NCBI GenBank assembly: GCA_948144175.1
Contig: CANXME010002183.1
Span: 186,001 to 250,000, forward strand
Direction of reading: 5' to 3'
Source of the DNA: Closterium sp. NIES-65
Lineage: Eukaryota; Streptophyta; Zygnematophyceae; Desmidiales; Closteriaceae
Length of the DNA: 64,000 bases
Positions 38,646 through 63,099 of this stretch are shown here, one piece after another. How positions within the stretch are numbered: the first letter of the stretch is position 1; each line of letters begins with the position of its first letter. Below the pieces are notes generated by a model, which was not told where the DNA came from, did not search any database, and saw only the letters and a list, made by a program, of their open reading frames with translations. Both the position numbers and the translations under genes were made by a program.

Positions 38646-39547
38646 TGTTTAGCCCCAAAACTGCTTCACGTTGTGGTTGACGGTGATGTCAACACGCTGC
38701 GCCAGGTTCTCCTCAAACTGTTTCAGGAGTTTGTTGCAGGTGCCCGTGTACGGCAGGTCGTCGACGTAGACTGTCAGGAGGATGTAATCGCCGCTAAAGT
38801 GAAGGTGATACATTCCTGGGTCGTGCGGCAGTTGCTTGAAGCCGATCTCGATGAGAATCTTGTGCAGATGCTGCTGCCATAGGCGAAGCGCCTGCTTGAT
38901 CCCGTAGAGGGACTTCTTCAGCTGACAGACCCTAGAATCCCCTTCTCCGTAGGTGTGAGGCTGCTCCACGAAGATGGTAGCATCCACCAACGCGTATAAG
39001 AACGCGTTTTTCACGTTGATCTGTCGCAGTGGTAGGTGCTTAGCGGCGTCAATGGCGATTAGAATCCTGACGGAGGTGTGGCGACTGACGGGAGCGAAGG
39101 TCTGGTCAAAGTCGATGCCGTGGCGCTGATCGTACCCACGTACGACCCAACGTGCCTTGAAGCGCTCGATAGTACCGTCAGCGTTGGTTTTAAGTAGAAA
39201 AACCCACTTTCCGCTGAGTACCCTCCTCCCCTTCACTGCTGCACGATCGACTAGGACCCATGTGTCTCGAGACTCCAGCGCTTTCAGCTCCGCATCCATC
39301 GCTGCACGCCAATCCTTGGCATGAGGACCGGTTAGGGCCTGGCAAGGATTCTTTGGCTCCATGGCCCGTGCGAGGGTAGTGACGGACGTGTGCAGGCCGA
39401 GAAGTTGAAGGCCTGACACATTGGTGGTGTCTGTGTTGGTGGGGACTTCCACCACGTCGTCGTCTCCGCTTTCGTAGCCGGGCACTGTGGTGCTGGGCTC
39501 TGCTTGGTGCCGTGACGGCCCTGGCGCGGGGTCATCGTTACTGTCAT
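38646..39547 (-). CDS. pol: C1 reverse transcriptase
   Basis: Open from the Met at 39485 for 278 codons, and upstream to the insertion point at 39547 (DSNDDPAPGPSRHQAEPSTT). RT blocks: AKDWRAAMDAELKALESRDT, SGKWVFLLKTNADGTIERFK, RGYDQRHGIDFDQTFAPVSR, VKNAFLYALVDATIFVEQPH and YVDDLPYTGT (about residue 240) with both active-site Asp. It ends at a TAG after HNVKQFWG, before RNase H. Removing the Gypsy insertion joins this frame to integrase at 46730 as RDVDDDSNDD. Confidence 0.87.
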
Positions 39548-39552
39548 CGTCG

Positions 39553-39925
39553 TTGTCATGTTTTTAATTGCTAAATAGCGTAGGCAAGGACAATATAAAA
39601 TCATGACAGATTACAGTAGTGAGTAGAGTTACAAATGAGTTAAAGGAACCCCGCGCAATCAAGGCGGGGGAAACGAGGAGACGTAGCGAAAACGGGTATC
39701 CGTTGTGGAGCAACGGTAACCCGGCCCTACTACTTAGGCAAGCAACCGAAGTAGGTTCAATTGCTTGCTTGTTTGTTTCCACTCTTAGCCAAAGATTTGC
39801 TACTCCCTATTGCTGCTTTCATAGAGGAGCCAACCACAGCAAGCCCAAGTGAATTGTTGCAAAAGGGGTTTGATCGGCAGTCAGCCGAGTTAGGTTTTCC
39901 TAGCCAAGATCTAGTGGCTAGAAAC
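39553..39925 (+). repeat. 5' LTR of the methyltransferase Gypsy element
   Basis: 373 bp. Contains an inverted pair TGTCATG (39554) / CATGACA (39602) and GCAAGCAA / TTGCTTGC (39739 and 39761), possibly structures in the transcript. Differs from the 3' LTR at 39553 (T/C), 39587, 39692, 39821 and 39922 (each A here, G in the 3' copy). Confidence 0.92.
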
Positions 39926-39973
39926 TTTCAACAAACAAGCAAGGAAGCGACCCGCTGTCGCCACGGAGTTAGT

Positions 39974-42442
39974 ATGACCGATAGGTTTAAATTGCGATCC
40001 GGACAGAACTATCGTAGAGAAGCGCCTCTCGCGGAGCCAAGCTGGCGCGCCGCTACCACCACCATCCGGGAAGGAGAAACTACGACCGAAGCGGCACGCT
40101 CGTCACTGCCAAGAACTGCGGCCTATCGCACCCCGCATCAACGTGAACGGGACAGACAAGAGGAGATGGAGCCGCAGCGCACCGTCGCGTCAGACCCAGG
40201 AGAAACGCCCCACGATATGCGATGGGCACGTGAAGCACGGGAGCGATGGGAGTGGAAGCCCGCGGTCACTTCCCCTAGAGAGATGCCGGGGATAGAGACA
40301 GACCGGACGCCGGTGCACGCGCCTTGGCTACGCCGCCAGCCAGAAAGCGGGTTTCAGACGCCGCCGAATCAGGAAATCGTGGCTAGCCAGTCAGCGGAGG
40401 TACCAGCGGCTGTGGCGCTCCCTCCCCATCCGAATGAAAAAAGTTGGCAGGGCGGCGCTCTCCCAAAACTAGAAGTGGCCGAGCGATTCACAGGGATTCC
40501 CGGAGTGGGCCCTACCTTGAAGAACTACTTGATGCAGCTCGAGACGGTGCAGTACTGCTGGGAACGGGACGGACTGGACCCTGCCGAGTTCTTCAGACGG
40601 ATGGTAGTGACATTGGCGGGCGAAGCGGAGACTTTTTACCGGATGACCCGGAGTGAATTGCTCGAGGAATGGGAATGCGGTGAGACAGTCAACCCGACCA
40701 CGCGCTTCATCGAACTACTAAAGAAGGAGTTCCTGGGCCAGACCAAAGCGAGGGTGGAAGAGTTCCGTGGGTTCCGCCGGGGAAGAGAGGAATCCCTACT
40801 GGCCTACTATTGCAGGCTGAGGGAGCTCGCCGAGGACTTGGAGAGTAGCGACGAACGACTGCTCGTACGCAAGTTCGTAAGGGGCTTGGAGGAAGACCTG
40901 CGGAACGTGGTGCGGAACACGGTATATGGCATCGGCGTGGAGATTACACTGAAGGAAGTGTATGGACTGGCGAAACGTACGGAGCACGTGCAACGGATGT
41001 TGGATTTGGAGGATGGAGAGACCCGTCCCAAAGCGAAGTCCTCGTGGGCGGCGGCAGCGTTGGTGGAGACGGCGCAGGGAGGAGCGCCTTGGACAGATGG
41101 ACGGCGGTGTCACGAATGCGGAGAACTGGGTCATCTAAAGCGCGACTGCCCGAAGCTGCCGGTGTGCGGGAACTGCGGGAAGAGAGGGCATAAAGAGGAC
41201 GCCTGCTACAGCCGCCGCCGCTTGGAAGAGAACCCGAGCAAGGAGGAGTTGCAAGCGGAGATTAAGAAGCTGCAATTGAAGTTGGAAGCCAAGCCGATAA
41301 TCGAGCCGAAAGCTCGGGCCATGCTCGCATACGAAGAGATTACAGAGGACGAGGAAGGAGAATCCGAGTACCTGACTGCAAGTGGCTTCATGGCGCTCCC
41401 CAGAGAGAGGGGGGAGATAGACCTTCGGCCTCGGGGAAGTCAGTCGACCGAAAGCTGCTCCAGCCGCGTGAGAGGACCGAGAGGTAACTTCCACAAGGGG
41501 AGTAGTACCTCGGAGCTGCGCCGCCATCCTAACAAGCGATTGGTGTGCCAGGCGTCCGTGCTGATCGCGGAAAAGGGGAGCCTGACCCTAGGGGGGCTGC
41601 CCGTCGGCCAGGCGATCGTAGACACTGGCGCGCACAATGTGTTGATCGGACGGGGCCTAGCGAAGCAGCTGAAGCTCGACCTGCCGGGGAGGGTGGTACC
41701 GAGGGGGATCGTGCTCATGACCGCTGAAGGGGGTGAGCCGAAATGGATGCCGCGGACCGTAAGGCCGATCGAGATCGTACTGCTCCCAGGGACGGAGAAA
41801 GAATGTTGCATCCGCGTGACTTGCGGAGTGTCGGAGTCGGAAGATTATGACGTGTTGTTGGGCATGGACCTGTTGTACCGAGTGGGCGCCACCATTTGTA
41901 CCTGGCAAGAGAAAGTGCTGTACCGAGTACACTATTGGGATCCGGCCAGCTCGGTCGGCACCTTGCCTGTGAAGTTCGTCAGGCAAGAGCCGCGGGAGGC
42001 CTACGGGGCGCGACCTGCTGACTTGAGCCCTGTGCTGGATGAGTGGAGTTGGGAGAAATATGCAGAGGAGTACGAACGCCGCATCGAAAGGAGACAACAG
42101 GGGAGAGAGCCGCCGCCCTTGAAGGAGAGGATCTCCAGGCTATGGACACTCGAGGGGTCGGTGTGTGTGATGGAGCTCTACGGAGGCATCGGTACCGGGT
42201 TGGCGGCAGTGCTGAAGGCGGGATGCAGAGTGCGGAAATGGATTCAGGTGGAACGAGACCCAGTGGTGCGGCGGATGGCTCAGCATGACGCATGGCTGCT
42301 ACTGGGAGAGTACCCGGAGCAGATAGCGAAGTCTGCTATCCCAGCCGAGGATGAAGAAGTGGTGGATGACGTGAGGACCATTACGACGGAGAAATTGGAG
42401 CAGTGGGGGCAGATCGACGTCATCATCGCGGGATGGGAATGT
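39974..42442 (+). CDS. gag-pol: Gag, protease and first part of the DNA methyltransferase (823 codons)
   Basis: Start chosen at ATG 39974 (MTDRFKLRSGQNYR), the first ATG after the LTR; the frame is also open back into the LTR without an ATG. The Gag core (LPKLEVAERFTGIPGVGPTL, FRRMVVTLAGEAETFYRM, FRGFRRGREESLLAYYCRL) is a retrotransposon capsid domain. Two CCHC knuckles follow (CHECGELGHLKRDC at about residue 379, CGNCGKRGHKEDAC at about 398). A Lys/Glu/Leu segment follows. The protease has IVDTGAHNVLIGRG (Asp about 550) and DVLLGMDLLYRVG. From about residue 722 the methyltransferase begins, with motif I MELYGGIGTGLAAVLKAG (733 on), WIQVERDP (motif II) and IDVIIAGWEC ending at the TAA. The stop lies directly after the presumed catalytic Cys (residue 823). 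Confidence 0.92.
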
Positions 42443-43115
42443 TAAGGGTACTCGCGCGCAGGAGCGGGGTGGGGGATGGACGATATCCGGGGGGGCTCTT
42501 TCCAGGATCTGAGGCGAGTATTGGAAATGGTTCAGACGAGGCAAGGGGAAGTGTTGTATATTTTGGAAAACGTGGACTTCGTAGAGGATTGCTGGGAACA
42601 CGTGAGGAGGGCGTTTGCGGAGGTGGAGGCGGCCGTAGGTAGGGAGCAGGCGGTTGATGCAGCGCAGCTGGGGTCCAGGGCCCACCGACCGAGAAGTTAC
42701 TGGCAGAACGGGATCTCGGACGCGAGCCTACGTCACGCGCTCACGCAGATGCAACGGCTCGAACCCAGGCTGGTCAGTGACATCCTGGGTCCCAACCGGC
42801 TGCCCACACCAGTCACCACTCCTGACCATCCGTCACAATATCAGTGCAACGTGCCAGGGAAGCCGAGGCAGGCGCTGCCTACGCTCGTGTCCTACGTGGA
42901 CGCGTACGGGTTCGTGATGGAGGGGGATCTGCCAGGTCCGGGAATGATCTACGATGTAGTGGGGAAGCAGTGGGAGCAACCTACGGCTGCCGAACGGGAG
43001 TTAGCCTGGGAGCCACAGCCTGGGAGCCACAGCCCATCCTCGAGTGACGGAGCCCCAGAGACGCGCGGCGCTGGGCCGAGCTATGGATTTGAGCGTCATG
43101 ACGTGGCTAGTGGAG
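42140..43115 (+). pseudogene. C5 cytosine-DNA methyltransferase domain, interrupted
   Basis: Transfers methyl from S-adenosylmethionine to cytosine C5 in intact homologues. Visible motifs in order: I (ELYGGIGTGL, 42173), II (QVERDP, 42245), an Asp-containing block VDDVRTITTEKLEQWGQIDV, IV (AGWEC, then TAA, then GYSRAGAG, 42431-42470), VI (YILENVDFVEDCW, 42557), VIII (GSRAHRPRSYWQN, 42670), a variable region (42710-42990) likely to read the target, IX-like PTAAERELAWE (42985) and X (RRAALGRAMDLSVMTWLVE, 43059). Motif IV normally has Pro before Cys; here it is Glu. The TAA is one C to T from CAA (Gln). A frame break at 43007-43044, next to a 14-bp tandem duplication, separates IX from X. Confidence 0.88.
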
Positions 43116-45614
43116 ACTATACGCATGCACTTGAAGCGGAAGGAGCTGCAACGCGGCATAGAAGTCAGCGAGCTGTACCAGGAGGAGGAGGAGGCCGAGA
43201 TGAAGCGGCGCCAGCTGCAAGCGATAGAAGAACAAGAAGAGGCGCAGATTTTAGAAGGATGGGCCTACATGGCCGTGGGAGTAGCGGAGAGAGGCGCGGA
43301 TCAAGGGGTACTACCTCTGGACGGAGAGCTGCCAGCCCCCGCGGAGAAGCCAAGTCAGGAAAGGGGCCCTGATGACGATTGGCCCATTGGCACAGGAATG
43401 GGGGCAAAAGCGGTGCGAGCGCTGCAGGAAGTGCTGAGAATGCACCGCCAGACGTTCGCTTATACCCTGCAAGAGTTGGGTCAGTGCAACACGCATCAGA
43501 TGCAAGTGAAGCTGACGACAGAAGTACCCATATACCAGAGGAAGCGGAGGATGAGTCCCGAAGACCTAGATATATGCAGGGAGAAGTGTGCCGAGCTGTT
43601 GGCTGCGGGCCTCATACAGAACTCGGACAGTGACTATGCAGCCGCGACAGTGGTGGCTGCACGGAAAGATATCACGGGGGAGGTGTCAGCCAGGAGGATG
43701 TGTGGGGACTACCGAGGGCTTAACAAAGTGACGGTGGCGGATCGGTACCCCATGCAATCCGCAGAGGAGATATTCGATCGACTGCAAGGGGCAGTGGTGT
43801 TCAGCACGTTGGATCTCCGCCAGGGGTTCAACCAGATACCTATTCGGGAGGAGGACCGCAAGAAGACAGCATTCCATGGGCCGGACGGATTACACGAGTG
43901 GAAGTTCATGCCCTTCGGCATGAAGAACGCACCGGCTTTGTTTCAGAGGGTGATGGACTCAGTGCTGAGGAATGTCCCGGCGGCAGCCTGCTACATAGAC
44001 AACGTGGTGGTGTTCAGCGCCTCCGATGAGCAGCATGTGAGGGACGTGAGCGACACGCAGGTGGCTATACGAGAGGCAGGACTAACCTGCCATCCGAAGA
44101 AGTGCAGTTTTGGCAACAGTACGGTGAAGTATCTAGGGTTCGAGGTACAAGGGGGGCGACTGAGCATCCAACAGGCGAAAGTTGAGGTGCTGGACCGAGT
44201 CCCCGCCCCCAAGGATCGTAGCACGCTGCGGGCGGTGCTAGCCTTCCTCAACTACTACCGCAAGTTTGTACCCAACTTCAGTCGCACAACCGCGGTATTG
44301 AATAAGCTGCTGAGGGAGGAGCAGCCATGGCAGTGGGGGGAGGCGGAGCAGGGGGCATTCAAAGCCCTACTGAAGGCTGTGAAGACTGGGACAGTGCTCA
44401 CTCTGCCCAACAAAGAGGATCCTTTCACACTCTACACAGACTGGAGCAGTGCCGGGATGGGAGGTATCCTATGCCAAGAACAAGAAGGACAGGAGATGGT
44501 AGTGGCGTTTGCGAGCAGGAGCTGCAATCCAGCAGAAGCCAACTACAGTTCCTATGAGGGGGAAGGGCTAGCAGCGGTGTGGGCCATCACTCATTTCCGG
44601 GTATACCTGCAAGGGAGACCGTTCACATTAGTCACAGACCATCAACCTCTGACATGGCTGATGACTAACCAGGCTCTGACAGGGAGGAATGCCCGATGGG
44701 CGATGAGATTACAGAAGTATGAGTTCACGATTCGGCACCGAGCAGGGAAAATGCTGCAGCACGTGGACGGGCTCTCACGTAACCCGCCCCCTACAAGCCC
44801 AGAGGTGTGCCTGGTGGCAATGGCCCGCGAGATTGACGGAGAAGGAGCGAAGCAGCAGGCACAACGAGGAGCTGACGACATCTGGGGAGACGATGAGACT
44901 CTGCGGTGGATCCAGGGAAAGACGTCTGAGGCAGAGACAGGGAGTGAGAGAGCCAGGGCCAGAGGGCTGCATTATCGGTGGTTCCAAGGTCAACTGCAGA
45001 AGACTACCAAGGAAGGGTGGAAGCTAGTCCCTAGGCGAGAAGAGCGGGAGGAGATAATCGCGAAGGTGCATCGGCAGTTGGGGCATTACGGCAGCCTGCG
45101 GACAAGCCAGCTGATAGAGACAGGCTGGTGGTGGGCAGGCATGAGAGGAGACATCAAAGCTTGGGTGAGCTCGTGCGAGCTATGCAGCCAGAACAAAGCG
45201 GAGCTCGAGAAGGGAAGGGAGGAGCTTCAGTCTTTACCTATCAGGGGAATAGGGTGCCGTTGGTCCCTAGATCTGGCAGGAGAGATGCTGCTCAGCCGAA
45301 GGGGGAAGAGGTTCATTCTGATAATGATTGAGCACGGCAGCAAATGGGTGGAAGTCAAGGCCCTGCCGAGCAAGAGCTCAGCCAAGATAGCCGAGGCATT
45401 CGAGGAGCAAGTGCTGACACGCTTTGGAGCATGCGGAGAAGTACTGACGGACCAAGGCACTGAGTTCTTGGGTGAATTTGAGAAGTTGCTGAAGGCGAGT
45501 GGCATTACTCACCGGCGAACCTCACGGTACCATCCGCAGAGCAACGGCCTGACAGAGAGTTTTGTGCAGACTATGAAGCAGGGACTAAGGGCATACGGAG
45601 AGAAGTTCAAGTGA
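43044..45614 (+). CDS. pol: Methyltransferase motif X, RT, RNase H and integrase (856 codons)
   Basis: The first codon is GTG, so this is the downstream part of a polyprotein, not an independent gene. Residues 5-25 complete the methyltransferase. A Glu-rich coiled-coil-like stretch (ELYQEEEEAEMKRRQLQAIE) follows. RT: VPIYQRKRRMSPEDLDICRE, RMCGDYRGLNKVTVADRYPM, FSTLDLRQGFNQIPIREEDR, then YIDNVVVFS at residue 317, where Asn replaces the second Asp of YxDD. RNase H: LYTDWSSAGMGGIL, FASRSCNPAEANYSSYEGEG, VTDHQPLTWLMTN. Integrase: zinc site HRQLGH and CELC (about 676-715), core Asp743, Asp803 (LTDQGTEF) and Glu838 (NGLTESFVQ). Ends at a TGA in YGEKFK-stop. Confidence 0.9.
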   Translation: MTEPQRRAALGRAMDLSVMTWLVETIRMHLKRKELQRGIEVSELYQEEEEAEMKRRQLQAIEEQEEAQILEGWAYMAVGVAERGADQGVLPLDGELPAPAEKPSQERGPDDDWPIGTGMGAKAVRALQEVLRMHRQTFAYTLQELGQCNTHQMQVKLTTEVPIYQRKRRMSPEDLDICREKCAELLAAGLIQNSDSDYAAATVVAARKDITGEVSARRMCGDYRGLNKVTVADRYPMQSAEEIFDRLQGAVVFSTLDLRQGFNQIPIREEDRKKTAFHGPDGLHEWKFMPFGMKNAPALFQRVMDSVLRNVPAAACYIDNVVVFSASDEQHVRDVSDTQVAIREAGLTCHPKKCSFGNSTVKYLGFEVQGGRLSIQQAKVEVLDRVPAPKDRSTLRAVLAFLNYYRKFVPNFSRTTAVLNKLLREEQPWQWGEAEQGAFKALLKAVKTGTVLTLPNKEDPFTLYTDWSSAGMGGILCQEQEGQEMVVAFASRSCNPAEANYSSYEGEGLAAVWAITHFRVYLQGRPFTLVTDHQPLTWLMTNQALTGRNARWAMRLQKYEFTIRHRAGKMLQHVDGLSRNPPPTSPEVCLVAMAREIDGEGAKQQAQRGADDIWGDDETLRWIQGKTSEAETGSERARARGLHYRWFQGQLQKTTKEGWKLVPRREEREEIIAKVHRQLGHYGSLRTSQLIETGWWWAGMRGDIKAWVSSCELCSQNKAELEKGREELQSLPIRGIGCRWSLDLAGEMLLSRRGKRFILIMIEHGSKWVEVKALPSKSSAKIAEAFEEQVLTRFGACGEVLTDQGTEFLGEFEKLLKASGITHRRTSRYHPQSNGLTESFVQTMKQGLRAYGEKFK

Positions 45615-46280
45615 GATTGGGATGCAAGGCTACCCTGGGTGGCGGCGGGATACCGATTCAGTAAGCAAGCGGCCTTGAAAGACTTCTCCTCTTACTACCT
45701 GCTGCTAGGAAGGGAACCCATCCTACCGGTGGATGCGCCACGGCTCTTGACGGGGGTGGTCAGGGCCGACACAGCGGAGGCTTGGGTGGGGTTAGCTGAG
45801 GCGCGGGCGTGGTACCTGCGGGAGATGCTGCCAGCGGCACTAGAGAACCTGCAAGTGGCACAGCTCACGGATGCCCAGCGCTACAAACGGAGGAGAGAAG
45901 AGAAGACAGAGAAAAGGGGGCCACAACTGGGGGTGGGAGAGGAAGTGTATGTCAAGCAGGCGAGGCAGGACATGCTGGACATAGGACTGAGTGTCGAGCG
46001 GTGGAGAGTGAAAGAAGTGAAGGATTCAGGCGTGGTGGTGCTAGTCGGGGAGAAGGGTCAGGAGAAGCGGGACCATTGGACGAACGTGGTGCGGGCCAGG
46101 CCCCTTACAATGGCCCCATCAGTAAGGAGGAGCCTCAGGAAGGAGAAGGGAGGGCAGCCTTTCTACCAGGAGGTCCATCCGCGACAAGGGACGGAACCAG
46201 TGCCGAGGAGGGGGCAAGTAGGAAAGGCAGAACCAAAGACCCAAGGCTTGGGGAGGGAGCTAAGGAACTTGATGGGCTGA
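45615..46280 (+). CDS. pol: Integrase C-terminal region of the methyltransferase Gypsy element
   Basis: Same frame as 43044-45611 after one TGA: DWDARLPWVAAGYRFSKQAA and YYLLLGREPILPVDAPRLLT are the usual end of a Gypsy integrase core. An Arg/Lys/Glu-rich helix (QRYKRRREEKTEKRGPQ) and an SH3-like segment (GEEVYVKQARQDMLDIG, RWRVKEVKDSGVVVLVGEKG) follow. It stops at TGA 46278-46280. No chromodomain is found, so targeting would rely on another feature, if any. Confidence 0.87.
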   Translation, partial: DWDARLPWVAAGYRFSKQAALKDFSSYYLLLGREPILPVDAPRLLTGVVRADTAEAWVGLAEARAWYLREMLPAALENLQVAQLTDAQRYKRRREEKTEKRGPQLGVGEEVYVKQARQDMLDIGLSVERWRVKEVKDSGVVVLVGEKGQEKRDHWTNVVRARPLTMAPSVRRSLRKEKGGQPFYQEVHPRQGTEPVPRRGQVGKAEPKTQGLGRELRNLMG

Positions 46281-46351
46281 TGAGATATAGCAGGGAGGCC
46301 TAGAGGACAGCACAGACACACGAGGGCAGAGGAGAAGGAAGATTCCGACAT

Positions 46352-46724
46352 CTGTCATGTTTTTAATTGCTAAATAGCGTAGGCAGGGACAATATAAAAT
46401 CATGACAGATTACAGTAGTGAGTAGAGTTACAAATGAGTTAAAGGAACCCCGCGCAATCAAGGCGGGGGAAACGAGGAGACGTAGCGAAAGCGGGTATCC
46501 GTTGTGGAGCAACGGTAACCCGGCCCTACTACTTAGGCAAGCAACCGAAGTAGGTTCAATTGCTTGCTTGTTTGTTTCCACTCTTAGCCAAAGATTTGCT
46601 ACTCCCTATTGCTGCTTTCGTAGAGGAGCCAACCACAGCAAGCCCAAGTGAATTGTTGCAAAAGGGGTTTGATCGGCAGTCAGCCGAGTTAGGTTTTCCT
46701 AGCCAAGATCTAGTGGCTAGGAAC
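46352..46724 (+). repeat. 3' LTR of the methyltransferase Gypsy element
   Basis: 373 bp, 368 identical to 39553-39925. Followed by CGTCG at 46725-46729, then C1 integrase on the minus strand. Confidence 0.92.
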
Positions 46725-46729
46725 CGTCG

Positions 46730-47220
46730 ACGTCGCGCGGGCGCGGCGGGATGTTGGGATGTTCGTCAGTGTCGTCGCGGTCCACTGCTGCTGCTGCTGC
46801 TGCTTCGTCTTCTGGAGTCGCAAAGCTGCGGCCGCTGTTGACGTAGCCTCGTGCCTCATTACGACGTTCGTCCTCAATCCACTGCTTCAAGGTGAGCCGC
46901 TCGTAGAAGAGAATATCACGCGTGGGAACAACCTCCTTGCTGTCAATGTCAAGAACGAGCCACCCTCTGTGCTCGTGACTGAGCCCCAGATGAATTCCCC
47001 AGTGCGCGCGATGAACGGACTTGCCGATTGTGGCCTAGGCCAGCCGATACTGCACCATGCACCCCCAAACCCTCAGCATGGAGGGATCTCCCCTTGAGCC
47101 GGTCCGCTTCATATGAGGGGACAGGTTATCCCTGTTGGCGGTGGTGGAGAGAAGGTTGTGCAGGCGCACCGTGTGGTTCATGGCGTAGGGCCAAAACTTC
47201 TTTGGAAGGCCGGACTGGTT
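46730..47220 (-). pseudogene. pol: C1 integrase C-terminal part and spacer
   Basis: Minus strand. From the D1 insertion point it reads NQSGLPKKFWPYAMNHTVRL and HNLLSTTANRDNLSPHMKRT, then RVWGCMVQYRLA, the conserved C-terminal half of a Copia integrase, then an acidic and Ala-rich spacer (PEDEAAAAAAVDRDDTDE) up to the Gypsy insertion. With D1 removed it follows MTKVCALM of the upstream part in frame. A TAG near 47033 interrupts it. Confidence 0.85.
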
Positions 47221-47225
47221 CATGA

Positions 47226-48100
47226 TGTTATGTGATGCTATCATCTGCATTCACGTCTGTCTGCCTCCCATCATATGTTCGTGCGTTGCATGCGTGGTGT
47301 GAGCGTGTGCAAGAATTCCTGTTTGATGTGGTTTGGATTTCCTTAGTGTGTGTGAATGCTCTTTGGCTTGAGCAGATATCTGAAGTGACTCCTCTGCTCA
47401 AGAGCTTTCCGTCAAGCCAAGCATCGCTTCAATCGGAGCACGAACAAGAAAGTTACAAACGTTTGAAGTTCGTATGCTTTTGATATTTGGTTGTGGTGAA
47501 TATGGGAAGTTGTGGGGTTGACTCCATATGAGGTACAGAATTTTGGGGGTTGGGAAATTCGTCAACATCACTGTAGATGCTGCCAAGTGGTTGGGAGGAG
47601 CCAAACCAGGTTGGCAAGTGTGGCCAAGTTGGGCAAGGTGGATGGCATGGGTTGGGAAAGTGACAAAAGTGAAAGTGGGGTTGCCTATGAAGAGGGGAAT
47701 TGTGTGGCATGGGGTTTTCTTGGTTGGGGACTCTCTTGGGACCTTCCCTCTCGTCCTCCTCATCCCATCTCACCTGGTTTATTGCTACTCCAACTCTCTT
47801 GTGTAGTGATTGTGAACTTGTGAGACTCTTGTGATTGAGTTAAGTTCTTATGGCAGCATACCCCCCTGTGCGCCGAAATTGATAAGTCGAGATTTACTTC
47901 ACCTCTTGATACGATTCAAATTGGGAATTGTAGCCACGGAATAGGGCTACAACATATCTGAGTTTTATGAAGTTTTGAAAATGAAAGTTTCGTCGACGGC
48001 GTTTCTTGTGAGCGCGACTATTCTGTCCAGAAATTGAGACCAACGATTTTGTGATATTTAGGCACATAATCTTCATAGACTCCGTTCTTGGTCTCTAACA
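47226..48100 (+). repeat. D1 5' LTR
   Basis: 875 bp with matching ends TGTTA...TAACA. Its 3' two thirds (47533-48100) align to 49609-50176 with few differences. The open frames within are not supported as genes. Confidence 0.85.
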
Positions 48101-48102
48101 AG

Positions 48103-48114
48103 TGGTATCAGAGC
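48103..48114 (+). promoter_or_regulatory. D1 primer-binding site
   Basis: TGGTATCAGAGC, two bases inside the LTR: the classical Copia site complementary to the 3' end of initiator Met-tRNA. Confidence 0.88.
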
Positions 48115-48335
48115 TGATTAAGGACCTTGTGGGGAGTCTACTGAAGTGTGAAGACCCTCCTAGACCCACCATGGCCTGTGGGCGTGCCTAAGTGGAGTTT
48201 TGGAGGTTGGATGTGACTTCAGCTAAGGGGAAACTCTGCCGAAATTTCGTTGGCGCTGACACTTGTGGAAATTGTGTGGGACTTCGGTGTGGACAGCAAA
48301 GGGGGAGCTGGAACCTGTGATTGGGAGCAGAGGAG

Positions 48336-49608
48336 ATGAGTCAAGGGAGTGGAGAAGCAGCTGAGAAGAGGAGTGAGCCGCCACCATCCAAGATTGAGGC
48401 GTTGGATGGCTCCAACTACGAGGAATGAAGCAGGCGGATGCGGAGCGCCTTCAAGCGCTATAAGCTGCTGAAACTCGTGATGGGAGAAGAGAAGATGCCG
48501 GAAGAAGGAGATGTCCGCGATCGATGGATTGAGAAAAGCGCGGTGCTGTACGACTTGATTCTACAGTCGGTCAACAACGACATGTTCCAGCACATCAAGG
48601 ATTTGGTGGAGCTCGATGACTCAGGACCAAATGCGTGGAAGCTGCTACGCGACGTGGTTCAGCCCAACACCCTGCCGATGGTGATCGTATTGGAGAAGGA
48701 GCTGGCGCCTCTCCATGCGGCCGGGAGACGATGTGAATCCGGTGCTTGACAAGGTCAAGGACACCTATGCGAGGATGGCAACGGCGAGCAGCAAGGTGTC
48801 GGAGATGCAGCAGTGCACCAAGATCATCTCGGTGCTCGACAACTCGTGGGACAACCTTATCCCCACCCTCAACGTTCAGCAGGACAAGTGGACGCCTGAC
48901 TGGCTACGGCAGCAGATCCTGTAGGAGGACTTCCGCAGGCGCCACACGGGAGGTGGTGCTGCCAAAAAAACTGCTGAGGGGTATGGAGCTGCAGGAGGCA
49001 GTAGAGGAAGAGGGGGAGGGAGAGGCCGAGGCCATGGGAGAGGCTTTGGCAGAGGGAGAGGCCGAGGTGACTACAATGAGGGGCATGGGAGCTCTGGAGG
49101 TAGGGGGAGCACCCGAATGGAGGGTGCGTGCTGGTACTGCAAGAAGGCTGGACACCCGTGGTTCAAGTGTTTCAGCCGGCCTGAGGGATGGGCCCCTCCA
49201 GGCATGAAGCCGCCAAGTGGTGAACGCGCACGAGGTGGCGCTGTGCAAGGTTCAGGTGCACAAGGTGATGGTGCACAAGGTAAAGCCGACTTTTGGATGT
49301 TCCTCATGGTTGAGGATGTGCAAGGGAGTGGGGGTGATGTGGGTTCAGTTGGGAAGGTTGTGATGCACACCCTCACTCACTGGGTAATCGATTCAGGTTG
49401 CACAAGTCACATGACCCCAAGGGCAGAATTGCTTGACGAGGTAAAACCCCCTAGGAAGATAAAGTTTGTGGCTGCCGCTTTTGGTGCCTTGCTCCCTGTG
49501 ATTGGTGATGGGAATGCCAAGGTAATGGGAGCCAATGGGGGGCTTGTGGGGCTGGGGAATGTGCTGTTGGTTGAAGGTTTGTCCGCTAACCTTCTTTCTA
49601 TGCGCTGG
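48336..49608 (+). pseudogene. gag: D1 gag with truncated protease
   Basis: ATG at 48336 (MSQGSGEAAEKRSEPPPSKI), then LDGSNYEE-TGA-SRRMRSAFK at 48426, where Trp is expected, then the Copia Gag core (WIEKSAVLYDLILQSVNNDM, FQHIKDLVELDDSGPNAWKL). A frame break lies near 48717, then VLDKVKDTYARMATASSKVS and IISVLDNSWDNLIPTLNVQQ. A TAG at 48922 precedes the Gly/Arg-rich segment. The knuckle CWYCKKAGHPWFKC is at about 49135. Protease: HWVIDSGCTSHMTPRAELLD (about 49380) and GNVLLVEGLSANLLSM, ending at the deletion. Typical plant-type Copia Gag, different from Copia-A. Confidence 0.87.
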
Positions 49609-50176
49609 GTACAGACTTTTGGGGGTTGGGAAATTCGTCAACATCACTGTAGATGCTGCCAAGTGGTTGGGAGGAGCCAAACCAGGTTGGCAAGTGTGGC
49701 CAAGTTGGGCAAGGTGGATGGCATGGGCTGGGAAAGTGACAAAAGTGAAAGTGGGGTTGCCTATGAAGAGGGGAATTGTGTGGCATGGGGTTTCCTTCGT
49801 TGGGGACTCTCTTGGGACCTTCCCTCTCGTCCTCCTCATCCCATCCCACCTGGTTTATTGCTACTCCAAATCTCTTGTGTAGTGATTGTGAACTTGTGAG
49901 ACTCTTGTGATTGAGTTAAGTTCTTATGGCAGCATACCCCCCTGTGCGCCGAAATTGATAAGTCGATATTTACTTCACTTCTTGATACGATTCAAATTGA
50001 GAATTGTAGCCACGGACTGGGGCTACAACATATCGGAGTTTGGTGAAGTTTTCACTGTGAACCTTTCGTCGACGGCGTTTCTTGTGAGCGCGACTATTCT
50101 GTCCAGAAATTGAGACCAACGATTTTGTGATATTTAGGCACATAATCTTCGTAGACTCCGTCCTTAGTCTCTAACA
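49609..50176 (+). repeat. D1 3' LTR, 5' truncated
   Basis: 568 bp matching 47533-48100 at constant offset 2076. Its left end joins protease coding sequence. Confidence 0.88.
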
Positions 50177-50181
50177 CATGA

Positions 50182-51570
50182 GGGCGCAAACTTTTGTCAT
50201 GAGGGTGTGATTGACCCTCTCTGCGACGCCTTGCTGCTGGTGAGCGTAGGGGAGAGAAATCTCATGCTCGATCCCCTTCTTGGTAAGAACGCTCTCCAGC
50301 TCGTTGCTGGGAAATTCCTTGGCCCCATCACTCTGCCAGATCTTCAACTTCCTTCCTGATTGTCGCTGCGCGTGCGCGAGGAAGATGCGAAATACTTCCG
50401 GAGCCTTGGAGCGAGCATCGACGTTGGCGACCCACACATGGCGCGAGTATGCGTCGATGAAGGTGAGGGTATATTTCTCGCCGTTGATGCTGTCGAAGGT
50501 GAGCACGATGAAGTTGCTGTATACTTTCTCCAGCTTCTTGTTACGGTTGGTGCTCGGCTCCAGAGAGGGGTAGGCGCTGTGGGAGAGCGCAGCTGTGGGG
50601 CAGATAGTGCAAGTGATTGGGTGAGGGGTGTTGTGTGGTTCTGTTCCGTTGGGGCGCAGTAGTGCTCCTGGCAGAAAAACTTTAGCGCGAAGGCAGTTGG
50701 CGATGGTCTGGCGCAAAGGGTGGCCCAGCCGCTGGTGCGAGAGGTCATCTTCGGCGCGAATGCAGGAGGTGCGCTTGTACCGAGCGTAGTGTTTCGCTAC
50801 TTCTACTTTCGTAAGTTGCGGGATCTGGAGTGGAGGTTCTTCTTCTTCTCCTGGTTCTGCTCCGTTGTTCGGCTCCTCTGCTTCTGCTTCTGCTCTTGCC
50901 GTCATCTCCCCTTCTGCAGGTGCCGTTGTGAGGTAGAGGGCGAGAAATTCACGGTCGGGGATGACGGTGAGCGGGGTTGCGGTGCCTTCAATGAAACGAG
51001 CGAAAGAATCTGGGCGGGAGATTGGACCAAGTGAGTCCCGCGAAGGAGTTGGTGGTATATTCCCCTCCTCAATCTCCGACCAGGGATCGCTCCAACGATG
51101 AGGTGAGCGAGGGGGTTCACGATTGCGTGGGGGTCGTCCGAGGGGAATGGCTACGCGGGGTGATTTTTCTCCAATTCTCGCTCAGCTTTCATCTCTCGTT
51201 CAGCTTCCTCCAATTCTTCTTGCGTGAGCTCCCCTTCGTCGGGTTTGGCTGATCCCCATCCTCCCGTGGTGACCGTGCCGCTGGCGCTGGCTCCCCATGC
51301 TCCAGTGGCGGATGCCTAGGTTGCGCCTTCTTCTGGTTCGTAATCTTCGTCTCCCCCTGCGCCTCGTCGTGCTAACTCCTCGTCCCATCCAGCCGCGACG
51401 CGTTGCTCATACAGTTTTTGTTTCTTTTCCGCTCGGGCCTTGTCTTGTTCTTCTTTGACGCTCAGCTCCCCTGTTGCGTCAGGATCCTTCCAAGCCGGGT
51501 CAGTTTCACGGCGGTAGACTTCGCGGGTGTACGGGCACGGTCGTCCATCTTGTCGAAGGTGGTGTTGTTA
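50182..51570 (-). pseudogene. pol: C1 integrase N-terminal part
   Basis: Minus strand, open from about 50905 to the D1 junction. DDLSHQRLGHPLRQTIANCL and CTICPTAALSHSAYP form the zinc region. FIVLTFDSINGEKYTLTFID, then WQSDGAKEFPSNELESVLTK and HQQQGVAERVNHTLMTKV provide the D, D, E core. Immediately before it is acidic, low-complexity sequence (EAEEPNNGAEPGEEEEPP). Upstream (51000-51570) is charged spacer with several stops. It continues, after D1, at 47220. Confidence 0.83.
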
Positions 51571-52545
51571 CCTTCTAGGACGAACCGAAGGTTTTCCGAG
51601 TATGGCGCTGTGCGCTCCGCTTGCTGTTGTCCGAAGTCGTCGCTTGCTTCGCCGAAGATGCAGTAAGACGACACAACGAGTTCTTCTGCAGTCGTGCCTG
51701 TTGGTTCTGCCTCGGCACTTTCCGCCTCCTGGATTGCCGCGTACTCTTTTTCGACCTGCTCTGTGCGGCTCGCCGTGGGTGTGTGGCAGGTGGTGCAGAG
51801 ACCATTGATGACTGGCTCGTATAGATTGATCTCGCGGGGATGAGGGCTGCGGCGAACCCATGGTCGTCCGTCTGGGTGCACCCATGATTCCTTGCCCATG
51901 TAGGCGAAATCGAGAGGGACGAGGTCCACGAGCTCGTCGGATGATGCTTGGCAGGAAGGTACGTGACTCGTACAGATTGATCTCGCGGAGATGAGGGCTG
52001 CGGCGAACCCATGGTCGTCCGTCTGGGGGCACCCATGATTCCTTGCCCATGTAGGCGAACTCAAGAGGGACGAGGTCCACGAGCTCGTCGGATGATGCTT
52101 GGCAGGAAGGTACGTCGAAGTCTAAGACGTAGATTCCGTTGATTGAGCGGGCTCGTCGGAGATATTTGAACGACTCGGGAGGGGTGTCCGGGGGAGCGTA
52201 GGAGAGAATGAGATCGCGTGTGGCTAGGTCCGTGGTGAGTATGACGCCGCACTCGCGAAGTTGTCCTGCCGAGAGGAGATTAAAGCGAAGGTTTGGGACG
52301 TAGAGTACGTCGTTGAACGAGATGTGTGTGTTGTTGTCTCGCGCTTGCAGGACCACGATGCCTTGCGCATTGGCGCGCAGCTGTTCGTTGTTAGCGACGG
52401 TGACGTAGGTCGCGGGGGCGCGGCTCTGATTCGAGACGTATCGCGTGGATCCCACCAAGTGCTGTCCGCGGCAGCTGTCCAGGAACCAGGTGTTGTGGAT
52501 GTCGATGTCGTATCTACGCAGAAGTAGCGCCAGTCGCGGAGTCAC
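51571..52545 (-). pseudogene. pol: C1 protease and following region
   Basis: Minus strand, open for 325 codons from 52545. DIHNTWFLDSCRGQHLVGST is the protease start. The usual DSGA is DSCRGQ here, so the Gly next to the catalytic Asp is lost. YVTVANNEQLRANAQGIVVL, FNDVLYVPNLRFNLLSAGQL and DLATRDLILSYAPPD complete a Copia protease. After it an approximately 150-bp tandem duplication (about 51815-52115) repeats the CQASSDELVDLVPL segment in a shifted frame. Confidence 0.82.
51815..52115 (-). repeat. Tandem duplication within C1 pol
   Basis: Two copies of about 150 bp: CGTATAGATTGATCTCGCGG to GGCAGGAAGGTACGT, then CGTACAGATTGATCTCGCGG to GGCAGGAAGGTACGT. They differ at a few bases. The duplication changes the reading frame of the second copy. 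Confidence 0.8.
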
Positions 52546-54060
52546 CAGGGTTGCTTTGTAGCGCCTGTGGAAGAAGGGGTCTTAGTCTTCCTTCCATCCC
52601 ATAGGTACGTATTGTTGGTTGTCATGTGGCGGGCTTTCCCGCAGTTTGATTGGCTGATTCCAATCCTGCTCGTCTTCGTCATACAGGTAATAGTGATCTT
52701 CAGTGAAGGGATTATTCCAACCCTCTTCTGGTTCAAGGAGTCTTCCTGGGATCTCATTCTCTTCGTCGGGCTCAGCAGTGCGACGTCGACGCGTCGCCAT
52801 ATTTGCGATGATGTTTCTAGGAGCTCCTGATTGAGGTCCTTGAGTTTGCTGATGTTGATGTTGTGCAAGAGGACGAGGTGTCTGATACTGAGACTGAGGA
52901 TGACGAGCATCTTGTCAGCCGACCCAGTTGTTGTGGTGAGTGGAATTTGGGTGGCGATAGTTGGATCGGGACTAGCATCGATCCGTTGAATGTCCGAAGA
53001 TTTTGCATATTTTGCAAAAGTGGTGCCTTGGTTGTCGTCGCTCTTCACGGTTGTCAGCGTAGAAGGCGAGGCGCTCTCGGCACGGCGCAGAGCGTGTTCT
53101 GCTCGAGTCCATGTCCTGTTGTTCAGTCAGGAGTGCGGCGCATAGCGCGGCTTCTGATATGATTCCTCGCTGTCGGAGTAGCGCTTTGCAGGGCTTCCTT
53201 TCTGGCCCGAGTCCTTGAAGGACTATGTTGACGAAGATCTCTTCCGAGATTGCGCTTCCATGCTTCGTGATCTGGTCACGGATGTTGTGACAGCTGTTAA
53301 TATACGAATTTGCTTTGTACGTGTGCCCCATCTTTGTCTCCATCAGTTGCTGCAGGAGCCTGCTGGCGGTAACCGAGTCCTTCGGTTGATAAACCTTAAC
53401 GAGGTGCTTCCAGGCTTCCAAGGCTGTAGCGGCGCCCTCTTTGTAGGAGCGGATGCTTAGTTGCTCTGCAGGCGTCATGTTGCGTCGCATCACACTATAC
53501 GCCATGAGGGACTCGCTGTAGTACTGAGCACTGGCGTCGTCAGTGTCGTCCACCGGTTAAGGATAGGAGCCGTCGAAGTAATGGTAGATCTACGCTGTCT
53601 GTAGGAGGAGCTCAAGCTCGAAACTCCATGTGTAGAAATCTTTGCCGTCAAATGAGGCAGTGGTCTTAATTTTTGAAACGCCGAGGAAGCGTGTTTGCGC
53701 AGAGTTAATGACTTCATCACTTGGACGGGGGGCAGTTGTTGTTGATTTGTCTGTGTCGAGGGAGAAGGTGTGCACGGCGGTATCACGGATTTTTGCAGCC
53801 GGTTGTCCAGGTTGAGCTGGTTGGGAAGAGGTTCCCGCATCGCCTTTGCGCAAATCTTGGAGTTCTTTCTCCATAGTTGAAAGTCGAGCGAATAACTGCT
53901 CGAGCGCGGCACAGACGATCGTAGTTGTCGCCTCATTTGTCGCAGCCGGGTTGATTTGTCCTTCAGCCGTCAGATTTGCTTGGCCTCTGGATCCTCCTGC
54001 CATCTTGGTCTTGGAGCGTGTGCCGCTCGCCAGATCTTGGTTCGGCAAATTTCACGGAAG
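52546..54060 (-). pseudogene. gag: C1 gag
   Basis: Minus strand from Met 54048: MPNQDLASGTRSKTKMAGGS, EQLFARLSTMEKELQDLRKG (coiled coil), FDGKDFYTWSFELELLLQTA-stop (TAG near 53590). After the break come YYSESLMAYSVMRRNMTPAE, SLMAYSVMRR, TALEAWKHLVKVYQPKDSVT and LLQQLMETKMGHTYKANSYI, the UBN2/Copia Gag core. The zinc knuckle CKICKIFGHSTDRC is at about 52975-53020. A Gln- and Arg-rich tail with several frame changes leads to protease. Decayed but unambiguous. Confidence 0.85.
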
Positions 54061-54097
54061 TGAAGATGCGAAGAATCCCTGAGTATCTCTCATACCA
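54061..54097 (-). promoter_or_regulatory. C1 leader with primer-binding site
   Basis: Minus strand directly inside the 5' LTR: TGGTATGAGAGATACTCAGG, a diverged Met-tRNA-type PBS. The leader to the gag ATG is only about 50 bp. Confidence 0.72.
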
Positions 54098-54507
54098 TGT
54101 TACAATCCCAAGTGGGACTTTAGCGAATGATTGCTCAGGGTTGATCGTAGAGTAATGTTGCAGCGAAAGTTTGAATCTCATGTCAGAGTGTTGTAAATGA
54201 CTGAGTTGATAAGAGCATGCATACATCGGGTTTATATAAGAATACAGGGGAATACGAATAGACCTAGACTAGCCATGTACTCTAAGGGGTACATTCCCTT
54301 ATTATAGCGAAATTCAAACCGTGCGGCGCGGGAGCCCGTTTCAAACCTGTTCCCGCTCTTTTCACTTCAAGTGTTTCTGCCTACATCGGTCTTGGTCAGA
54401 CAAATGCTGCGTCTCTTCGACTCTTCTGACTCCTCGACTTCGTACTCAGTAGAGTCGGCTCGTGCAGCCTACAGGAATGCCTTCTCATGTACTTTCATAT
54501 CGTAACA
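54098..54507 (-). repeat. C1 5' LTR
   Basis: 410 bp, partner of 37369-37778. Followed by CTAGC 54508-54512. Confidence 0.92.
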
Positions 54508-54512
54508 CTAGC

Positions 54513-54606
54513 TTTGCTATATATTCTTCGCTCATGCCTTCGCTCAAAGTACTGTTTTGCTTCGATAGTGCAATTCTCGCTCACTTGCTCAATTGCACTC
54601 GTAACA
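54513..54606 (+). repeat. G1 3' LTR, second part
   Basis: TTTGCTATATATTCTTCGC...CACTCGTAACA, continuing 37111-37368 after removal of C1. End assigned by the CA terminus. AGTGT follows as a possible target duplication. Confidence 0.65.
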
Positions 54607-54798
54607 AGTGTACAAAACCTAAAACATGTTGAGACCACTATGGGGATTCATATCTTGGCTAGCTGGCTTCGGTTGGCTCGCAAGGCCCGGAAGCTCTAAG
54701 TTCGGAGGCAGCCTGGGGGTCTGTGTTCGCTCGTAGGTGTGGCCTGGTTTCGAAACTATGGCTGCCCAACCAAACCACTGACACAGCAGCACAAGGGT
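54607..54798. other. Short sequence between G1 and Copia-6, unassigned
   Basis: 192 bp without repeats or convincing coding potential. Its last five bases AGGGT (54794-54798) are the left target duplication of Copia-6. Confidence 0.6.
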
Positions 54799-54928
54799 TG
54801 TCAGAAAATTATAGCTTATGCTTTTGTGTAGGCTGTAGTGGGGTAGCCCATATGGGGTACAACCCAATTAGGGTTAGTACTTGTACCCAACTGTTTCATA
54901 GTTCATTCATTTTTCGTGTTTCTTCTCA
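54799..54928 (+). repeat. Copia-6 5' LTR
   Basis: 130 bp, TGTCAGAAAATTATAGC...GTTTCTTCTCA. Confidence 0.95.
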
Positions 54929-54957
54929 TGGTATCGAGCAGGTTCCCTAACGGGAAC
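54929..54957 (+). promoter_or_regulatory. Copia-6 primer-binding site and hairpin
   Basis: TGGTATCGAGCAG follows the LTR without gap, then GTTCCC-TAAC-GGGAAC (54942-54957). Same stem as Copia-3, loop changed. Confidence 0.82.
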
Positions 54958-55009
54958 GATTCCTAGGGCCCACCACTACGAGATTTTTTGTTCCTGCCCG
55001 GAGCGCGCT

Positions 55010-55935
55010 CCGCTTAGGCCCGAGTCGCGCCTCGTGCGCTTTCCTTACCGTCGCGCCCTCGTCAGGCCCCTCACGGCCCCGTCGCGTCGCCCTTAGCGGC
55101 CCCTAGCGGCCTCGTCGCGCTACCCTAGCAGCCGCGTCGCGCCGCCCTAACGGTCGCGTCGCGCCGCCCTACTCGCCCTCACGGCCCCTTAGCGGCCTCT
55201 CGCGGCCCGGATCCGCCGCCCTTGCGGCCTCGATCCGCCGCCCTTTGCGGCCCGTCGCCGCTCTCGACTAGCGGCCCCGTCGCTGCCCTTACACAGCCCC
55301 GCCACCTACCCGCGGCCCCACCACCTACCTGTGCGGCCCCGGCGTCTACCTGCTGGCCCCGCCACCTACCTGCGGCCCCGCCATCTACCAGCGGCCCCGC
55401 CACCTACCTGCGGCCCCGCCACCTACCCGCGGCCCCGCCACCTACCTGTGCGGCCCCGGCGCCTACCAGCGGCCCCGCCACCTACCTGCGGCCCTGCCAC
55501 CTACCCGCGGCCCCGCCACCTACCTTTGCGGCCCCGGCGCCTACCTGCGGCCCCGCCGCTTAACTGCGGCCCCGCCGCCTACCTACGGCCCCGCCACCTA
55601 CCTGCGGCCCCGCCACCTACCTGCGGCCCCGCCACCTAACTGCGGTCCCGCCTACTCTCAGCGGCCCCGCCGACCCGCCCAGCAGCCGAGCCGCCCAGCC
55701 GCCGAGCCACCCAGCAGCCGAGCCGCACCGCAGCCGAGCCGCCCAGCAGCCGAGCCGCCCAGCAGCCGAGCCGCCCAGCCGCCGAGCCGCCCAGCAGCCG
55801 AGCTGCCCAGCAGCCGAGCCGCCCAGCTGCCGAGCCGCCCAGCAGCCGAGCCGCCCAGTAGCCGAGCCGCCCAGCTGCCGAGCCGCCGAGTCGCCCTGCA
55901 GCCGAGCTGCCCGAGCCGCCCTGTCCGGTAAGAGC
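55010..55935 (+). repeat. Copia-6 leader minisatellite
   Basis: Two repeat families: GGCCCCGCCACCTACCTGC (about 19 bp, 55280-55650) and GAGCCGCCCAGCAGCC (about 16 bp, 55680-55910). Non-coding by position between PBS and gag. Confidence 0.9.
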
Positions 55936-55995
55936 AGCGCCTCTTTCCCAGCACTACCCTCACCCTACTGTTTGCGCTGCTAGTCTACTGCTGTC

Positions 55996-60976: not shown

Positions 60977-61206
60977 TGTCAGAAAATATAAGTTAATATT
61001 TTCTATATGTAACTGCCTGTAGGAATGGTTACTGTAGTTATAGCGTTTTCCTATTTGGTGGTGCACCTTTCTTGTTTGTTCTTTCATATTTGTACCCTTG
61101 AACCTATAGTCAAACCCCTCATTCTCTCGACACTTTTTCCTTCAAATCAAACTCAACTTCTCCTACATCACTAGCCATGGCTCCTAAGCCTCGCTAGATT
61201 CTGACA
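60977..61206. mobile_element. 230-bp solo-LTR-like insertion in Copia-6 RNase H
   Basis: Flanked by TCTGA (60972-60976 and 61207-61211). Ends TGTCAGAA...TTCTGACA form an 8-bp inverted repeat with the TG...CA of LTRs. AT-rich interior with TATATG, unlike its GC-rich host. It contains ATGGCTCCTAAGCCTCGCTAG (six codons). No matching second copy in the window. Most likely a solo LTR left by recombination; a small terminal-inverted-repeat element is the alternative. Confidence 0.75.
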
Positions 61207-61211
61207 TCTGA

Positions 61212-61318
61212 GGCCAACACTGCTGATATCTTCACCAAGGCACTTGCGCCTTGTGATCATCAGCGCTTCTGCACTCAGCTTGGTCTTGTGCCTGTCTTGC
61301 CTCACTTGCTCACCTCTT
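61212..61318 (+). pseudogene. pol: Copia-6 RNase H C-terminus
   Basis: Resumes after the insert and one TCTGA copy with GCCAACACTGCTGATATC, giving ANTADIFTKALAPCDHQRFC and PVLPHLLTS-stop (TGA 61318-61320). Matches the end of Copia-4 almost exactly. The first half is at 60759-60976. Confidence 0.88.
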
Positions 61319-61402
61319 GACCTTGCTTGTATTGTTACATATATATACACCTGCTCTTGCTTGTCTAGCTTTCTATATATATATGTACTCCTGCATGTGA
61401 AC

Positions 61403-61530
61403 AGTGAAAGTTAGAAGAGAGAAGAGAATTGCAATAGCAAGAATGAGGATACAAATAGCAAACCTTAGAAGGGTTGTACTCGCTATAGAGCACCCCACTA
61501 CAGGCTAGACCATAAGATAACATTCTGACA
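61403..61530 (-). repeat. M7 3' LTR
   Basis: 128 bp, AGTGAAAGTTAG...TTCTGACA on plus. The first base is A where the other LTR has T. Confidence 0.88.
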
Positions 61531-62665: not shown

Positions 62666-62701
62666 GGATCGATCCAAGGGGATCGACCTGCTGTGATAGC
62701 A
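62666..62701 (-). promoter_or_regulatory. M7 primer-binding site and hairpin
   Basis: Minus strand after the 5' LTR: TGCTATCACAGCAGG (PBS-like, two or three changes from Copia-A). It then forms GGTCGATCC-CCTT-GGATCGATCC (62688-62666), a stem of about 9 bp with a GU pair. Position and loop size match Copia-A hairpins, with a third stem sequence. Confidence 0.75.
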
Positions 62702-62829
62702 TGTGAAAGTTAGAAGAGAGAAGAGAATTGCAATAGCAAGAATGAGGATACAAATAGCAAACCCTAGAAGGGTTGTACTCGCTATAGAGCACCCCATTAC
62801 AGGCTAGAGCATAAGATAACATTCTGACA
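62702..62829 (-). repeat. M7 5' LTR
   Basis: 128 bp, TGTGAAAGTTAG...TTCTGACA on plus. Confidence 0.9.
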
Positions 62830-63094: not shown

Positions 63095-63099
63095 AGGGT

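Follow-up and report, generated by a model that had tools for sequence, protein, structure and literature searches.

The 64,000-nucleotide stretch of the Closterium sp. NIES-65 genome analyzed here (contig CANXME010002183.1, positions 186,001 to 250,000; hereafter the window) carries at 39553–46724 a Ty3/Gypsy retrotransposon with a C5-cytosine DNA methyltransferase domain in its polyprotein region. The window element has decayed, and it belongs to a Ty3/Gypsy lineage whose Gag-Pol includes a DNMT3-class domain as a standing part; we consider it nearly certain that this is a working lineage. Cytosine methylation is a standard route of retrotransposon silencing. Since the methyltransferase of these elements is selected about as strongly as their reverse transcriptase (RT), carriers must therefore gain from the enzyme. 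This explanation as a whole is in our judgment probable; the best-supported mechanism within it would have the Gag-Pol-borne methyltransferase act on the element's own complementary DNA (cDNA).

An earlier, sequence-only reading of the window had placed methyltransferase motifs inside a Gypsy element, and this assignment holds. Motifs I (ELYGGIGTGL), IV (AGWEC, stop, GYS), VI (ILENV), VIII (RAHRPRSYW) and X (ALGRAMDLSVMTWLV) follow one another between protease and RT, with Pfam matches to the protease and zf-CCHC upstream and to RVT_1, RNase H, the integrase zinc-binding domain and rve downstream. The letters of motif IV are as that reading gave them, but the stop codon interrupting them had gone unmentioned. 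The Ty3/Gypsy order of protease, RT, RNase H and integrase, with an RVT_1-type RT, is found by Pfam in the window element and in three further loci of this genome (L039, L041 and L042). A profile comparison, which the same reading had proposed, gave a divided result: the window's own methyltransferase pieces have no Pfam match to PF00145 at E up to 1, but both are matched by a profile (A1) built from eleven relatives from elsewhere and containing no sequence of this genome, 42140–42442 with 99.7% probability (E 2.1e-26) and 42446–43024 with 100% (E 8.2e-49; hhalign). The relatives' match to PF00145 is centred on motif IV, the site of the window's stop, and the PF00145 cut-off of 22 bits is passed, at 27.9–41.5 bits, by all seven distinct relatives from this genome that were tested (stretches L013, L018, L032, L006, L002, L039, L041 and L042, L013 being the same copy as L039). 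Across the rows of profile A1, the catalytic cysteine is present in 10 of 11 and the motif VI glutamate and motif VIII arginine in 11 of 11, and the cofactor motif is conserved. When set against the classes with PDB chains, the domain stands nearest to DNMT3, ahead of DRM, DNMT2 and the bacterial enzymes; its class is DNMT3, not the tRNA class DNMT2. Motif VI of L041 reads LLEHLD in place of ENV, and a Klebsormidium relative (P0027) likewise has EH, with the glutamate kept.

The window copy is broken at three places: a stop codon at 42443–42445 immediately follows the catalytic cysteine codon of motif IV, the frame changes at about 42990–43040, ahead of motif X, and a further stop at 45612–45614 interrupts the integrase. 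This copy cannot make a full methyltransferase. Unbroken relatives exist in the same genome, and the sequence-only reading was right that the domain lies inside the polyprotein. A DNA search with 42120–43120 (40 scored of 186 candidates) returned the window itself, 13 copies at 93–97% identity, which lie on 13 other contigs, and 26 copies at 76–79%. Loci L039–L042 hold open frames of 1881–2321 residues that include protease, methyltransferase, RT, RNase H and at least part of the integrase; that of L039 (1881 residues) starts within gag, that of L040 (2053) is open to the end of the fetched stretch, that of L041 has 2321, and that of L042 (1953) ends within the integrase. The domain is thus no assembly join. 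A genome search with PF00145 scored 123 of 901 candidates, all above the cut-off, and the ten places examined (L001–L008, L041 and L042) all match the methyltransferase profile of this lineage. Some matches are regularly spaced by 7064 and 7088 bases on one strand (G000:C995:460522, 467586 and 474650; C382:36104 and 43192), as if in head-to-tail arrays of elements with shared long terminal repeats (LTRs).

Between L039 and L040, the ratio of nonsynonymous to synonymous change (dN/dS) is 0.040 in the methyltransferase, compared with 0.032 in RT and 0.031 in the integrase, with synonymous sites already near saturation (pS 0.70). The methyltransferases of L006 and L002 give 0.064 and two more distant pairs 0.151 and 0.145, while most other comparisons yield no ratio. 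By these ratios, the methyltransferase domain is strongly constrained between families.

The lineage extends beyond this genome. A protein search with the methyltransferase as query found 29 proteins from Closterium NIES-53 and NIES-54, Marchantia polymorpha, Klebsormidium nitens and metagenomes, which fall into two architectures. In type A, comprising the elements of this genome and those of Closterium, Marchantia, Klebsormidium and some metagenome proteins, the methyltransferase lies upstream of RT; in type B (P0014, P0015, P0018, P0020, P0021 and P0025), it lies after RNase H and before the integrase, and a seventh type-B protein, P0028, is without the RT part and has the methyltransferase before the integrase. 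The best match, P0001 of Closterium sp. NIES-53, is 57% identical over 97% of the query, followed by 36–41% for M. polymorpha, 41% over 77% for K. nitens P0027 and 32–41% for type B. The Klebsormidium, Marchantia and type-B proteins cover 77–99% of the query at 128–237 bits, compared with 35 bits for DNMT3A. PHD fingers, a chromatin-reader fold, occur in six of the seven type-B proteins according to precomputed Pfam matches, downstream of the integrase in the three checked (P0014, P0025 and P0028); the seventh, P0021, is cut off in the integrase.

The history of the domain was addressed with trees of 25 methyltransferase, 20 RT and 17 integrase rows, all chosen for carrying the methyltransferase, with P0002 and P0003 (chimeric start), P0017, P0019, P0023 and P0026 (gapped or near-identical Marchantia), P0022 (long branch) and rows under the coverage limits left out. 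Type B is monophyletic in all three (support 100/99, 100/99 and 99/97), and Closterium P0001 is placed each time, with weak support, among the families of this genome. The three trees concur in their main shared clades, and the domain therefore appears, as far as such trees can tell, to have travelled together with RT and integrase. They differ in what joins the window's clade: type B in the methyltransferase tree (92/88), Marchantia and L046, a locus described below, in the RT tree (95/93), and L046 by itself in the integrase tree (93/89). In approximately unbiased (AU) tests, the alternatives were not rejected (p 0.069, 0.061 and 0.055), and earlier trees of 29 methyltransferase and 19 RT rows without L046 gave the same picture.

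It is possible, if somewhat short of probable, that DNMT3 was captured once, in the distant past, and that the Gypsy lineage founded in this way has kept a methylation writer of its own throughout the evolution of green plants. Such a history would span Klebsormidium, Closterium-like algae, liverworts and the metagenome hosts; one branch would have moved the writer between RNase H and integrase and gained a PHD reader, and the branches including the window would have exchanged a proline for a glutamate in the catalytic loop. Repeated, independent captures by Gypsy elements of green plants and algae, with the two domain positions reflecting two captures, are an unlikely account, though one to be taken seriously. 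The domain does occupy two different positions, type B does join the window's clade in the methyltransferase tree and not in the other two, and the published view (de Mendoza et al. 2018, PMC5890265) is of one capture in the K. nitens lineage. Against this stand the agreement of the three trees in their main clades, with a single type-B clade in each, a tree conflict that is not significant, and the much higher scores of the Klebsormidium, Marchantia and type-B proteins than of DNMT3A. If the single capture is true, these elements would be writer-plus-reader machines acting at integration and not one alga's oddity. The relatives suggest a lineage that is older and wider, and has two architectures, compared with the 2018 view of it (PMC5890265); such extensions in age and spread, if confirmed, matter more than the window copy itself.

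Bacterial and viral sources were also considered. An origin of the domain in bacteria was rejected: among the best 80 of 201 relatives in GTDB genomes, 79 are distant (23–37% identity, mostly partial), and the remaining one, L046 (CADCWO010000201.1; 44%, full length), is itself a Gypsy element. Its contig was assigned to the bin of an uncultured Synechococcales cyanobacterium, but is most likely eukaryotic DNA in that bin. L046 has a WPC-type methyltransferase and carries gag, protease and methyltransferase in one frame and RT and integrase in another. A scan of IMG/VR with two peptide patterns gave a single distant match (27%), and Foldseek against viral models returned C5 methyltransferases of the ordinary kind from phages and giant viruses (best E 9.7e-17, root-mean-square deviation 7.9 Å).

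As to mechanism, we propose that the methyltransferase would be made as part of Gag-Pol and packaged alongside RT in the particle. There, or in the pre-integration complex, it would methylate the element's double-stranded cDNA de novo, probably in the CG context, before or during integration. The element DNA would then arrive pre-marked like the silent repeats of the host, and the gain might be that it passes as host DNA, that the cDNA is protected or that the host suffers less damage. For the cDNA as the methylation target, our confidence is tentative and falls slightly below an even chance. Many unbroken methyltransferase frames are present within one genome, and the element's gain is now testable by comparison.

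The enzyme might instead act on target chromatin or on the new insertion and not on free cDNA, directing integration into silent chromatin or rapidly establishing it, and so serving targeting or self-limitation, which we regard as unlikely, and more plausible for the PHD-bearing type B. In its favor are the position of the methyltransferase next to the integrase in type B (between RNase H and integrase in six metagenome relatives and before the integrase in P0028), the PHD finger in six of these seven proteins, and a mutational footprint suggesting that copies end up in methylated DNA. That footprint was measured at third codon positions in 14 pairs of 13 window-family copies with identity of at least 0.97, the pairs sharing copies. 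C/T differences affect 90 of 2199 CG, 62 of 1981 CHG and 62 of 5502 CHH sites, with ratios of 2.7–5.3 for CG/CHH and 2.1–4.0 for CHG/CHH on resampling of copies; in a second family (L029–L038), 21 pairs of at least 0.95 identity give 2.3–4.3 and 1.1–3.3. Only close pairs were used, because the CHG excess is absent (0.85–1.21) when all 45 pairs of the second family, including older ones, are taken, and because the transversion rate at CG is high in its more distant pairs. Transversions are also slightly raised at CG and CHG. Analysis of C/T context over whole alignments was noisy and was repeated with local identity filters and at third codon positions; CpG observed/expected in the window is 0.73. 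The pattern fits copies that decayed while carrying methylation at CG and CHG, of the sort that plant hosts apply. It is, however, what plant host enzymes are expected to leave, and does not show whether host or element enzyme wrote the marks. Moreover, the window element, L039, L041 and L042 have no Pfam match to a PHD finger or chromodomain.

The residue preceding the motif IV cysteine has a bearing on whether the enzyme is active. A proline is typical, though not defining, of C5-cytosine methyltransferases at this position, and motif IV of DNMT3A is SPC. Of 31 aligned rows, 22 have Glu-Cys (all six of this genome, three Closterium, six metagenome type-A and all seven type-B), six Pro-Cys (four Marchantia, Klebsormidium P0027 and metagenome P0022) and one Pro-Tyr, while two rows, both Marchantia, are without the stretch; P0019, P0023 and P0026, labelled metagenome in the alignment, are Marchantia proteins. 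Across 38 loci of this genome, each of the 18 unbroken frames reads GWECQ. An unbroken methyltransferase, defined as at least 305 of 319 profile positions in one frame, is present in 9 of 10 copies in L029–L038 and in 4 of 8 in L001–L008.

Several points weigh against a working, DNA-methylating lineage. Full activity is not to be presumed from these sequences, because glutamate replaces the proline kept in the Klebsormidium and Marchantia relatives and in DNMT3A. In metagenome P0024, the Pro-Tyr row, tyrosine replaces the catalytic cysteine itself; of the 14 window-family copies, counting the window's own broken one, only 5 have an unbroken methyltransferase, and of the 6 in L023–L028 none does; and no methylation was seen when the K. 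nitens Gypsy enzyme was tried in yeast, a result that its authors call inconclusive (PMC5890265). The glutamate, the lost cysteine of P0024 and the yeast result could also point to a non-catalytic or an RNA-directed role as the reason why the domain is retained, such as binding DNA or RNA or partnering a host DNMT in the manner of DNMT3L. We find this more improbable still than action on chromatin, given the near-complete conservation of the catalytic cysteine, glutamate, arginine and cofactor motif across profile A1 and the strong selection, and, for an RNA-directed role, given that the class is DNMT3 and not DNMT2. An assembly chimera, or the chance joining of a host gene fragment and a retrotransposon, might be suspected from a broken copy without a Pfam methyltransferase match, but is ruled out, with negligible residual probability, by the copies on other contigs, the long open frames through the domains, and the proteins of Closterium, Marchantia and Klebsormidium that share this domain order.

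The window belongs to an 874-Mb genome in 2400 contigs and is rich in Copia elements, with many fragments on both strands of 1–39500 and 47000–64000 (RVT_2, rve and gag_pre-integrase; 20 long frames scanned); scans of it found no Rfam families or tRNAs. The Gypsy element is nested within a minus-strand Copia element (Table 1). Its two LTRs differ at 4 of 372 positions in a local alignment, all transitions, and a purine-rich stretch is visible by eye just before the 3′ LTR. The 3′ LTR of L039 likewise begins TGTCATG, although no end-to-end alignment of the L039 pair was obtained. With 39553–46729 excised, the host Copia frame reads straight through the joint. The CGTCG duplication alone is weak evidence, because the insertion site is CGTCG-rich and 2 of 7 alternative cuts also keep the frame open; the empty-site result is support, not proof.

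Table 1. Features of the nested Gypsy element and its Copia host (window coordinates).
Feature	Position	Strand	Evidence or remark
Host Copia, RT part, interrupted by the insertion	38652–39563	-	PF07727 168 bits; frame overruns slightly into the LTR
Putative target-site duplication CGTCG, left copy	39548–39552		Sequence and empty-site check; an extra T follows at 39553
5′ LTR, TGTCATG...GAAC	39554–39925	+	Direct repeat and local alignment
Stop-to-stop open frame with gag, zinc knuckle, protease and first methyltransferase part	39755–42442	+	Ends at stop 42443–42445
CCHC zinc knuckle	41105–41155	+	PF00098 24.9 bits, residues 451–467
Retroviral-type aspartic protease	41591–41878	+	PF13975 26.8 bits (below cut-off 28.2), PF13650 24.4 bits (cut-off 24.3)
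Methyltransferase, motif I to catalytic Cys of motif IV (GWEC)	42155–42442	+	hhalign 99.7% to profile A1
Methyltransferase, rest of motif IV, motifs VI and VIII, region before X	42446–43012	+	hhalign 100%, E 8.2e-49
Open frame: motif X, RT, RNase H, integrase zinc-binding domain and core	43005–45611	+	Stop 45612–45614
Methyltransferase motif X (ALGRAMDLSVMTWLV)	43068–43112	+	Frame differs from preceding methyltransferase part
Reverse transcriptase	43695–44147	+	PF00078 (RVT_1) 114.4 bits
RNase H	44334–44720	+	PF17919 and PF17917, up to 119.2 bits
Integrase zinc-binding domain and core (rve)	45036–45536	+	PF17921 56.6 bits, PF00665 37.2 bits
C-terminal part of integrase frame, severed by upstream stop	45615–46277	+	Joined to integrase in L039; no Pfam match
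3′ LTR	46353–46724	+	Direct repeat and local alignment
Host Copia, part upstream of the insertion	46717–47034	-	SH3_retrovirus 26.8 bits, slightly below cut-off 27; frame unbroken across the empty site
Putative target-site duplication CGTCG, right copy	46725–46729		Sequence

The report of DNMTs captured by retrotransposons in a charophyte and in dinoflagellates, which the sequence-only reading had mentioned, exists and was described correctly in outline. PMC5890265 describes KnitGypsy-Dnmt3 of K. nitens, an LTR Gypsy element whose Pol frame includes Dnmt3, with Ka/Ks < 0.2. It also describes DNMT-bearing elements of the DIRS and LINE types in dinoflagellates; the DIRS enzymes methylate CG in yeast. 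The authors propose retrotranscribed DNA as the methylation target and place the acquisition by Gypsy within the K. nitens lineage; the main text of the paper contains neither the word Closterium nor the word Marchantia. PMC12344493 repeats the 2018 finding but calls the LTR type Copia, contrary to the Gypsy order and RVT_1-type RT of the elements here. Three Closterium protein models (P0003, P0004 and P0005) combine this methyltransferase with a Copia RT (PF07727); they are probably nested insertions merged by annotation, and such merged models may be the reason that a 2025 paper says LTR Copia.

Compared with these known systems, the window element is of the same kind as the K. nitens element, sharing with KnitGypsy-Dnmt3 the LTR Gypsy type, a Dnmt3-class domain in the Pol frame and conserved key residues (PMC5890265). 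In P0027 (KFL_009030040), which we provisionally take to be of the KnitGypsy-Dnmt3 family, the methyltransferase precedes RT as in the window, but motif IV has WPC where the window lineage has WEC. The window element is outside KnitGypsy-Dnmt3 in the narrow sense, because its LTRs are plain direct repeats, whereas the figure legend in PMC5890265 gives KnitGypsy-Dnmt3 a DIRS-like repeat structure; the many families in the 874-Mb genome are a further difference. The nearest named relative, P0001 of Closterium sp. NIES-53, has the domain order and WEC of the window lineage, but is annotated as an unnamed protein product and its frame leaves the alignment within motif X. SymbioDIRS-Dnmt3 of dinoflagellates is another retrotransposon whose Pol includes a DNMT3-class domain, and its enzyme acts on CG in yeast, but it is a DIRS element with a tyrosine recombinase and, according to PMC5890265, an independent capture. 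The catalytic domains of human DNMT3A and DNMT3B are about 25% identical to the element domain by structural alignment, and the PWWP and ADD domains of animal DNMT3 (PMC12344493) are absent from the Pfam matches of the window element, L039, L041 and L042. Sola1-1_Ec32 of Ectocarpus is likewise a transposon carrying its own DNA methyltransferase, but, according to PMC12477816, this is a DNA transposon with a ParB-like protein and an enzyme of a different kind, acting on N4-cytosine or N6-adenine.

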